NCBI RefSeq assembly: GCF_000184345.1 | Contig: NC_017583.1 | Span: forward strand, 2,170,001 to 2,234,000 | Reading direction: 5' to 3' | Length of the DNA stretch: 64,000 nt | Origin: Spirochaeta thermophila DSM 6578 | GTDB taxonomy: Bacteria; Spirochaetota; Spirochaetia; Winmispirales; Winmispiraceae | Shown here: piece after piece, positions 30,668-33,109 of the stretch | Position numbering within the stretch: the stretch's first letter is position 1 | Layout of the letters: the number at the start of each line of letters is the position of its first letter | Notes under the pieces: generated by a model | Database searches by the model: none | Told to the model about the DNA's origin: nothing | What the model saw: only the letters and a program-made list of their open reading frames with translations | Position numbers and translations under genes: made by a program

Positions 30668-32362
30668 CTAACGGGGTGGAAGGATGACCACGTGGGTGAT
30701 CACCCCCTGCGGCACCGTGAGATGGAAGGTCTTTTTTCCTGTGAACGAGCGTGCGGCCGCGTAGAACACATTGGATGCGGCGGAAAGCTCGCCCAGGGGA
30801 TCTTCACCCTCATACACCACAGGACCCGGCTCTGAAATCACCTCGCCGTCCTCGGTCCTGCGGTAATACCTGAAAAAGTCGATGGAACCCAGACGATACT
30901 CGGTCCCCCCAAGGGTAGAAGTGAACCACGTACCTGTATTGTAGCGGTATCCCTCCGGCATGTCCGTGCGGTCGGAGGTGAGCACGGCGACCGCCCACTG
31001 GGCCACCAGGTCGGCCATGGTGGTGTAGACCCCACCCGCCTCCTGTACGGCCTTTTCCACCGCATCCTTTCCCCCGTACGGGCTCTGCACCACCCGCCGG
31101 AGGAAGAAAGCCCCACCGAAGTTACGCACCGTCCAGGCCCCGAAGGCATAGGTGGTCGCATAGTCGAGCAGGTCGAAACCCTCGGTCTTCATGAGGGGCA
31201 GGTAGGTGTACTGGTTGTAGTAGGGGATCCGCCCTCCGGTATTGCCGGGATCGCCGGGTCCTCCCACCTGTGGGTCCACTCCGCGGGGCCCCTCCACTCC
31301 CACCTTGTCCGCGAGGAGGTCCTCCGCCACCTGACTGCACATCTCGTTGAGCCACACCTCGGAGATCCCGCCACGGAGCACGGTCTTCTGATAGAAGTTG
31401 ATCATGTGCTGGAACTCGTGGACCAGGGTGGAGAAGACGATCTTCGGCCACTCGTCGGAAGGAGTCCACATCCCGTCGCCGCCGTCGTTCGCGTACATGG
31501 GTGCGTCGATGGTGAACATGACCCGCTCGTTCGAGACAGGACTCTCACCGTACTGCTGGAGGTACTCGTTTTTGAACTGATGGATCGCGGCGAAGTAGCC
31601 CACGATTCCTCCCTCGGTACTCCCGTCATTCCCTATATCGGTAAGGAAGATGGTGATACCCCCGTCGAAGGGAATGAGATCCACGTAAGGGTGGCCCCCC
31701 CACTCAGGCCCCAGTATGGTCGTGAGCCAGTCGTAGATGTCATTATCGAGCCCCGATGAGAGGAAACGAGCGGCGAGCTCGTCCACCATCGCTTGGGTGA
31801 TGGTGCCCCACTGGTCGTCGGCCACCCAGATGGAGAGGGTGCGGAGTCCCTGTGGCGTATCCTCCGTCCCTACATAGCGACAGGTCGCGCTCACCGATCG
31901 GATCGTGTCCGCCACATCGTAGAAGGCATCCGTCTCGCCCACGGTATCGGCCCGCATCTCGGAAGGGGTGAGGGCCGCACGCGGGAGCGTCCGCCTCGTG
32001 CCCCGGGACAGGAGGAGCCGGGCGAGGCGGGCGTTCTCGTTGGCGATACGTGCCTCGATGGACGCCGGCTCGGGGAACACCGCAGGAAGCCTCAGCGCCC
32101 CGGGCTGGGGAAGCCGAACCCCATCCACCATGAGCGGAGCCACACTCACCACCTGGGCGCCGGAGTAGGAAGGAGCTGCGGAGAAGACGAAGTACACATC
32201 CCTCGGCTCCTCGAGCGCCACCGTGTAATCAAAACTTCCTGAGGAGGAGAGCCGCACGATACCCGCATGGCTTGCCAGTGGCTCGGTCTCGGGGAAGAAA
32301 AAGGAGCAGGAAAGGGAGACCCCCATGAGGAGTCCCACGGAGAGCCAGAGCATCCTCTTCAT
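30668..32362 (-). CDS. Lipoprotein zinc metallopeptidase, M30 (hyicolysin)-like
   Basis: A protein of 564 aa with a lipoprotein-like signal (hydrophobic 5-18, Cys19 in SLSC, a relaxed spirochaetal lipobox). TLVHEFQHMINF holds the HExxH zinc motif (H315, E316, H319). WLNEMCSQVAED (E340 and neighbours), about 20 residues further on, offers the third ligand in gluzincin fashion. The region IFLTDIGNDGSTEGGIVGYF before it also occurs in M30 peptidases. It is probably surface- or periplasm-exposed and degrades protein. It is translationally coupled (ATGA) to the beta-barrel gene before it and ends shortly before the asd promoter. The M30 assignment rests on motif order, not on an alignment. Confidence 0.72.
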   Translation of the reverse strand: MKRMLWLSVGLLMGVSLSCSFFFPETEPLASHAGIVRLSSSGSFDYTVALEEPRDVYFVFSAAPSYSGAQVVSVAPLMVDGVRLPQPGALRLPAVFPEPASIEARIANENARLARLLLSRGTRRTLPRAALTPSEMRADTVGETDAFYDVADTIRSVSATCRYVGTEDTPQGLRTLSIWVADDQWGTITQAMVDELAARFLSSGLDNDIYDWLTTILGPEWGGHPYVDLIPFDGGITIFLTDIGNDGSTEGGIVGYFAAIHQFKNEYLQQYGESPVSNERVMFTIDAPMYANDGGDGMWTPSDEWPKIVFSTLVHEFQHMINFYQKTVLRGGISEVWLNEMCSQVAEDLLADKVGVEGPRGVDPQVGGPGDPGNTGGRIPYYNQYTYLPLMKTEGFDLLDYATTYAFGAWTVRNFGGAFFLRRVVQSPYGGKDAVEKAVQEAGGVYTTMADLVAQWAVAVLTSDRTDMPEGYRYNTGTWFTSTLGGTEYRLGSIDFFRYYRRTEDGEVISEPGPVVYEGEDPLGELSAASNVFYAAARSFTGKKTFHLTVPQGVITHVVILPPR

Positions 32363-33030
32363 GAGTCACCCTCCGATTCGAGTGCCGCGGAGAGGCGGGC
32401 GCCACAGAGGGCCCGCCAGGCAGCACTCGTCCCGCCATCCCACCAGAGGAGCGCGAGGTGACCTGCGAAGAATGCCTCCAGGGACCACCGGCCATGAAGC
32501 GGAAATCTCCAACCGACCTCCACCCCACCCCAAGGAAAGAGGCGCGAACCCTCGACCTCGTGGGAGGCCGTCACCTCCACGTCCTCCCACCGGGAAGTGG
32601 TCACCACGGAGCCGGGGAGGAGGCCTGCACCCAGCCCCCCTCCGAAGAACCAACCCTCACCCTGTTGCGAGAAATAGTAGGCAACCCTGAGGCCCACCTC
32701 CAGGGCGAGCGACTCTATCGTGGAGAGCGAGGAGGGCAACTCACCGTCCCTCAGGGAGAGGGAACCGGACCACACCCCCACCCCCAGGAGTCCCCCCATG
32801 GAGAGCCCCGAAAGAGCCCACGATTCCATCCCCACGGCCCCATACCACGCAGGGGAAAAGGCGGGAGATACTTCCTGCCCAAGGCTCTCGGCACGTGCGA
32901 CCTCGGTCTTTGCCCAGAAACCACCCCATCCTCCTGTTCCACCTGCAGCCGACACGTCGAGGGAAAAGGAAACGAGGGACATGCTGGAGAGAAGGATCAC
33001 AATGGAAACGCACACCCCACGACGATTCAT
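32359..33030 (-). CDS. Predicted secreted/outer-membrane beta-barrel protein, coupled to the metallopeptidase
   Basis: A protein of 223 aa with a signal peptide (about residues 8-28, ending SAAG). The rest is alternating Gly-, Trp- and Leu-rich strands (GMESWALSGLSMGGLLGVGVW, FFGGGLGAGLLPG) that suggest a small outer-membrane barrel of eight to ten strands. I do not recognise the family. The stop overlaps the metallopeptidase start by 4 bases, so the two proteins are made together. A joint role, for example a barrel that displays or exports the peptidase, is inference. Confidence 0.6.
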   Translation of the reverse strand: MNRRGVCVSIVILLSSMSLVSFSLDVSAAGGTGGWGGFWAKTEVARAESLGQEVSPAFSPAWYGAVGMESWALSGLSMGGLLGVGVWSGSLSLRDGELPSSLSTIESLALEVGLRVAYYFSQQGEGWFFGGGLGAGLLPGSVVTTSRWEDVEVTASHEVEGSRLFPWGGVEVGWRFPLHGRWSLEAFFAGHLALLWWDGGTSAAWRALCGARLSAALESEGDS

Positions 33031-33068: not shown

Positions 33069-33094
33069 GGGAAAAGGGCCGCCGAAGCGGCCCT
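33068..33094 (-). terminator. Intrinsic terminator of the low-GC outer-membrane protein gene
   Basis: On the minus strand AGGGCCGC and GCGGCCCT form a perfect 8-bp stem closed by a TTCG tetraloop and followed by TTTCCCTTTA. It begins 16 bases after the stop at 33110. It is the only textbook intrinsic terminator I found in the window. Confidence 0.85.
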
Positions 33095-33109
33095 CTTTGG
33101 TCACCCCCA

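Follow-up and report, generated by a model that had tools for sequence, protein, structure and literature searches.

A barrel-like gene overlaps the gene for an M30 metallopeptidase lipoprotein in one clade of the family: a candidate envelope module in Spirochaeta thermophila

Does the four-base overlap between a barrel-like gene and a peptidase gene in Spirochaeta thermophila DSM 6578 mark a working unit of the cell envelope, or only two genes under shared control? The source genome is a single contig of 2,560,222 bases (NC_017583.1), from which we analysed a stretch of 64,000 nucleotides (positions 2,170,001 to 2,234,000), here called the window. A first-pass annotation of this DNA had placed an ATGA junction within window positions 30668-33030, and both open reading frames were found there, on the minus strand, sharing nucleotides 32359-32362. 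The first gene of the pair (33030-32359) encodes an exported, Gly/Ser/Trp-rich, barrel-like protein of 223 residues, and its TGA stop codon overlaps the ATG of the second (32362-30668), which encodes a 564-residue zinc metallopeptidase of family M30 that is a predicted lipoprotein. Along the same strand the pair is preceded, after a gap of 79 bases, by a gene for a TDE1717-type outer-membrane protein (OMP; 33829-33110; NCBIfam score of 68.5 bits, under the cut-off of 135) and followed, after 45 bases, by asd (30622-29498).

The annotation had also held that the overlap forces linked translation. The overlap is real, but 'forces' is too strong a word, as a ribosome-binding-site-like GGAGG (32370..32374, minus strand) lies within the 3' end of the barrel gene, 7 nt ahead of the peptidase ATG. 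In the other genome of the genus (G002), whose barrel and peptidase are 82% and 88% identical to those of the window, an ATGA-type overlap is retained and a comparable purine-rich stretch, GGGAGG, stands ahead of the peptidase start. Between the OMP gene and the barrel gene, the minus strand carries a GC-rich stem-loop with a UUCG loop and a U-rich tail (33072..33097; fold z -2.76) that resembles a terminator or attenuator. A simple terminator scan did not list this element, and no promoter-like site was listed in that gap. Because the stem-loop is conserved in both genomes, the upstream OMP gene may be a unit separate from the barrel-M30 pair.

By its sequence, the product of the second gene belongs to peptidase family M30 with its active-site residues intact. 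It scored 76.3 bits against the Pfam M30 model PF10460 (cut-off 25.8, E 2.3e-21), and a profile of 22 such peptidases matched lugdulysin (7bb8) at E 3e-25. The zinc-binding motif HEFQH (His315, Glu316 and His319; 31406..31420, minus strand) aligns to HEYQH of lugdulysin, and these three residues, together with Tyr401, are invariant across the 22 aligned sequences. Glu316 and Tyr401 align, as judged by counting along the alignment, with the two positions mutated in the entry 'Lugdulysin E242Q Y315F' (7bb9). The HExxH motif and the two residues altered in 7bb9 are thus shared with the family of hyicolysin, of which lugdulysin (7bb8, 7bb9) is a solved member. Lugdulysin, a staphylococcal enzyme, was solved as a chain of 410 residues, whereas the window enzyme is a predicted spirochaete lipoprotein of 564 residues with a barrel-like gene upstream. 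Its Cys19 (codon 32306..32308, minus strand) follows a hydrophobic stretch and is kept in at least 90% of the 22 aligned sequences; given this near-invariance, the peptidase is most likely lipidated. The description of the enzyme as an M30-like zinc peptidase lipoprotein was therefore borne out by the family match above cut-off, the invariant zinc motif and the conserved cysteine.

Assignment of the 223-residue protein as a small beta-barrel is supported but unproven, its basis being weak Pfam matches and composition. The protein has a signal sequence, and its mature part contains 17.6% glycine, 6.5% tryptophan and a single lysine. In signal sequence, size and Gly- and aromatic-rich stretches it resembles small outer-membrane barrels of the OMP_b-brl (PF13505) and DUF3575 (PF12099) families, but it has no match above a curated cut-off. 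DUF3575 was matched at E 0.0022 by the window protein (17.8 bits, cut-off 21.1) and at E 0.012 by that of the second species, both sub-threshold. The Pfam scan gave no OMP_b-brl match for the window protein; a more distant counterpart, at the locus termed L151 below, matched this family at a sub-threshold E of 3e-4 (21.5 bits, cut-off 28.7). Its density of strand-like segments was 4.5 per 100 residues, above the 1.5-2.4 of four window proteins that are not barrels, although 30 of 500 shuffled sequences equalled the count. By the same measure the adjoining TDE1717-type OMP scored 3.2 per 100 residues, a value reached by 270 of 500 shuffles. A profile search of the PDB with the barrel found no match, and AlphaFold2, supplied with two sequences only, returned a model of pLDDT 30.5. 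The barrel proposed in the first-pass annotation is consequently retained here as a candidate fold, favoured by the sub-threshold DUF3575 and OMP_b-brl matches but with no profile above cut-off and a poor structural model. A separate idea, that the protein is a paralogue of the adjoining OMP (33829-33110), was unsupported, with a profile comparison probability of 0.3%.

To follow the pair through relatives we used 296 genomes of the phylum, of which 97 contained M30 matches at E up to 0.001. When the window barrel was the query, matches below E 0.001 were confined in this sample to the two genomes of its own genus, and 10 of the 296 had a match at E up to 0.1. Such single-barrel searches, and those with a two-species profile, had suggested that the pair was confined to the genus, a view overturned by the genes directly upstream of the nearest M30 relatives. 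A scan of species genomes gave at least 451 M30 relatives, of which the best 80 were kept as named loci (L numbers). A barrel-type gene directly precedes the M30 gene in the window, in G002 (locus L043) and in L111, L113, L142, L114 and L151. Those of L111, L113 and L142 were recognised by inspection of the upstream neighbours, and when five sequences were compared directly, the L111 barrel matched the window barrel at E 1.8e-8. Run against the open frames of M30 loci L043-L102 and L111-L190, a profile built from these three and the two genus barrels, without L114, then detected the L114 barrel (E 1.4e-39) as its sole further match with E up to 1. The relatives in L111, L113, L142 and L114 had no Pfam or NCBIfam match at E up to 1.

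The seventh case requires more caution. In L151, a 231-residue exported protein overlaps the M30 gene by ATGA and is the counterpart by position, but it scored -3.1 against the barrel profile, lower than its reversed and several shuffled copies. It was found from the L142 barrel by phmmer at E 1.8e-4 among 23 sequences; from the L114 barrel, the reversed control outscored it. We counted L151 as a barrel on its position, signal sequence, OMP_b-brl match and the phmmer match from L142. In the phylum sample outside the genus, a six-sequence barrel profile gave one match below E 0.01, in G267 (E 3.1e-6), on a contig other than that of its M30 gene. A profile of the clade's M30 proteins run over 392 genomes, with members judged by score and by eye, found the genome of L111 again (L217), G285 (the L128 contig) and G321 (L240), the last on a contig that starts inside the M30 gene. 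Two oddities of these records were seen: the M30 gene of L114 (L114:4691-6482, on a metagenome contig) is split by a frame change, and the metagenome contig L128, whose M30 protein falls in the window's clade, is titled Borreliella garinii, a label that looks doubtful.

The distribution of the pair was then read on a maximum-likelihood tree of 124 M30 proteins, built by a quick method, with SH-aLRT values as the measure of branch support and no bootstrap. All seven barrel-paired M30 genes seen fall within one set of nine rows (SH-aLRT 95), and in the remaining two, L128 and L156, the contig begins inside the M30 gene. With L151 counted as paired and L128 and L156 left out, the barrel label required a single change on the tree, and none of 500 shuffles was as low; the rows labelled 'not paired' include 15 outside the set that had no upstream scoring (3 short, 12 without a called start). 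Junction overlaps in the seven paired genes measured 4, 4, 4, 4, 4, 1 and 16 nt. In an automated count, an upstream gene of at least 100 residues overlapped the M30 gene by 1-20 nt in five of six scored rows of the set versus 4 of 100 others, and the overlap was exactly 4 nt in four of six versus none of 100. L114 was left out of this count because its M30 gene is frame-split. The sixth scored row was L111, where the script chose a later ATG (gap of 38 nt); its 4-nt overlap depends on a TTG start that was favoured for its ribosome site. As the window and L043 are near copies of each other, the independent cases number about six.

The first-pass annotation had taken separation of the two genes in relatives as evidence against a link between them. 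They are indeed separated among M30 genes outside the set, where the barrel profile matched nothing with E up to 1 in the loci scanned, so M30 function does not generally depend on a barrel. Within the set, the pair stays together in all seven testable members. The M30 genes that lack the barrel belong to other parts of the tree, and we therefore do not count the separation there against the pair.

Such a pattern could also arise if the two genes merely encode envelope proteins under shared control, linked by descent in one clade and having neither physical nor functional contact. Four-nucleotide overlaps are not rare in the window, where they join 4 of 17 same-strand neighbour pairs as called by a crude gene caller (a similar caller dropped the real barrel ORF in favour of an antisense one), and the neighbours of M30 genes vary outside the set. 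Outside the genus the barrels are only 18-27% identical to that of the window, a level that does not suggest a tightly fitted interface. However, the M30 proteins of the set have themselves diverged to 35-47% identity with the window enzyme outside the genus, and the other neighbouring genes differ, yet the barrel and the overlap persist in seven of seven testable members. What exceeds chance is thus not the 4-nt overlap as such but its conservation in distant relatives, and we consider an ordinary operon of this kind unlikely. Since the pair and its overlap are kept across the clade, we regard the ATGA pair as a conserved, clade-specific envelope module.

What the barrel would contribute to such a module is a further question. 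The first-pass annotation proposed a display or export device: the M30 lipoprotein would pass the outer membrane, or become exposed on the cell surface, by means of the barrel. The conservation of the overlapping pair and the predicted lipoprotein nature of the enzyme would suit this proposal, but the size of the barrel does not. With about 200 residues, a barrel would have some 8-10 strands and be too narrow for a folded enzyme of 60 kDa to pass, and export through so small a barrel is accordingly unlikely. Two-partner secretion employs a large transporter barrel with POTRA domains, whereas the window partner has 223 residues and no POTRA match, nor did the Pfam scans find any other export domain. 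Moreover, M30 lipoproteins elsewhere in the tree do without such a neighbour, as judged by profile, and an OB-fold protein, not a barrel, is encoded more widely beside M30 genes. Taken together, these points leave export or display through the barrel very improbable, and this part of the earlier proposal was set aside.

The OB-fold neighbour offers a different comparison. Outside the barrel set, many M30 genes have beside them a gene whose product is small (about 95-150 residues) and exported. A profile built from 14 seeds gave 64 matches in 62 of the 296 phylum genomes; 41 of the 64 had an M30 match no more than 4 kb away, in every case on the same strand, and 38 of the 41 lay downstream of it. 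As the seeds are among the 41, the corresponding figure for non-seed matches is 27 of 50. Among the best 80 of the at least 451 M30 stretches, which overlap the phylum sample in some genomes, the partner was present in 39, downstream on the same strand in 36 and upstream in 3. Examples are the OB partners of Candidatus Marispirochaeta associata (L161:6602-6922) and Sulfurovum sp. AR (L165). These loci include records titled Sulfurovum, Desulfuromonadales, SAR324 and Lambdaproteobacteria. Three loci (L095, L102 and L085, from genomes G273, G282 and G203) were seen to hold more than one M30-type copy, with an OB-fold gene near those of L095 and L102.

No Pfam family was matched above its cut-off by four members of this partner group or by the first of a further 33-member scan, and the best match of any among the 33 was at E 0.0031. 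AlphaFold2 predicted a five-stranded OB-type fold (pLDDT 89.9). When this model was compared with structures (999 chains aligned), potempin A ranked 3-5 with Z 8.1-8.3, behind a Bacteroides DUF1344 protein at the top (Z 9.2) and among unrelated OB proteins at Z 7-8. Foldseek placed tRNA synthetases in its top rows and potempin A at rank 19 (E 8.4e-3). In two papers on the KLIKK proteases of Tannerella forsythia, potempins are small lipoproteins whose genes directly precede those of the proteases they inhibit (PMC7296668), and the small genes preceding the proteases had earlier been described as encoding lipoproteins whose function was then unassigned (PMC4404884). Given the likeness of the OB-fold protein to potempins in predicted fold, size, export and gene neighbourhood, a role as inhibitor of its M30 enzyme is plausible, by analogy and on the strength of a model.

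Could the barrel, then, have taken the place of such an inhibitor? On this account the OB-fold protein checks M30 enzymes in many lineages, was lost in the window's clade, and the barrel took over control. The one ground for proposing it is that the two patterns exclude each other: the OB partner, common beside M30 genes elsewhere and potempin-A-like in its model, was found by profile in neither genome of the window's genus, nor in the fetched stretches of the nine barrel-set rows (the L151 contig stops within its M30 gene). In the window, M30 is flanked by the barrel-like gene and asd, with no gene of potempin type. The order of the genes fits as well, since the barrel gene directly precedes its protease gene as potempin genes precede those of the KLIKK proteases (PMC7296668, PMC4404884), but the window partner is a 223-residue barrel-like protein and not a small OB-fold lipoprotein. 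OB folds are common, and the DUF1344 protein and tRNA synthetases outranked potempin A. In addition, neither partner is present in 54 of the 124 tree rows (with L151 taken as paired, and some of the contigs short); a lost OB protein thus does not call for a replacement, and nothing links the barrel to inhibition. We therefore find it rather doubtful that the barrel replaced a dedicated inhibitor. Equally speculative is the broader generalisation that two-membrane bacteria equip M30 lipoproteins with dedicated partners, a potempin-like OB inhibitor in several phyla and, in the window's clade, a barrel that would hold the enzyme latent in the membrane; if so, the protease would be controlled by a protein embedded in the membrane, and nature would have exchanged one type of inhibitor for another.

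One further gene was observed beside the pair. A lipoprotein of 176-242 residues, here lipoprotein X, flanks the barrel and M30 genes in four loci (L142:3502-4230, L114:3326-4012, L113:6772-7434 and L111:2460-2990), before the pair in two and after it in two, and lies on the opposite strand in L156. It had some match in 21 of the 296 genomes (best E 2.3e-5), with none at E up to 1 in the window genome (G000) or G002, and for this reason it is not counted in the window's module.

We somewhat favour the reading that the barrel-M30 pair is a conserved envelope module of one clade of M30 lipoproteins, in which the barrel serves as a docking partner for the peptidase at the outer membrane and governs the place or time of cutting. 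In this model, the first gene would supply a small outer-membrane barrel and the second a lipid-tethered M30 zinc peptidase. A ribosome finishing the barrel gene could start on the peptidase at once through the overlapping junction, resulting in joint production of the two proteins. The barrel would then act as the membrane-embedded partner to which the peptidase docks, and through this contact it might determine where, or when, the enzyme can cut. LptD-LptE is an outer-membrane barrel plus lipoprotein pair, and the proposed module would resemble it in combining a barrel with a lipoprotein acting at the outer membrane. It would differ in its much smaller barrel and in having an enzyme in place of the plug lipoprotein. 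The parts of the module are known kinds of protein, and the pairing itself was not found described in the literature searched, which likewise yielded no described partner of M30 enzymes; many subscription papers lay outside that search, so this absence weighs little.

Bacteria must protect the envelope from the proteases that they place in it. Two parts of one M30 family tree have two different neighbours beside the enzyme, a barrel-like protein in the clade of S. thermophila and, in many cases elsewhere, an OB-fold protein, which raises the question of whether each of them binds and restrains its enzyme.
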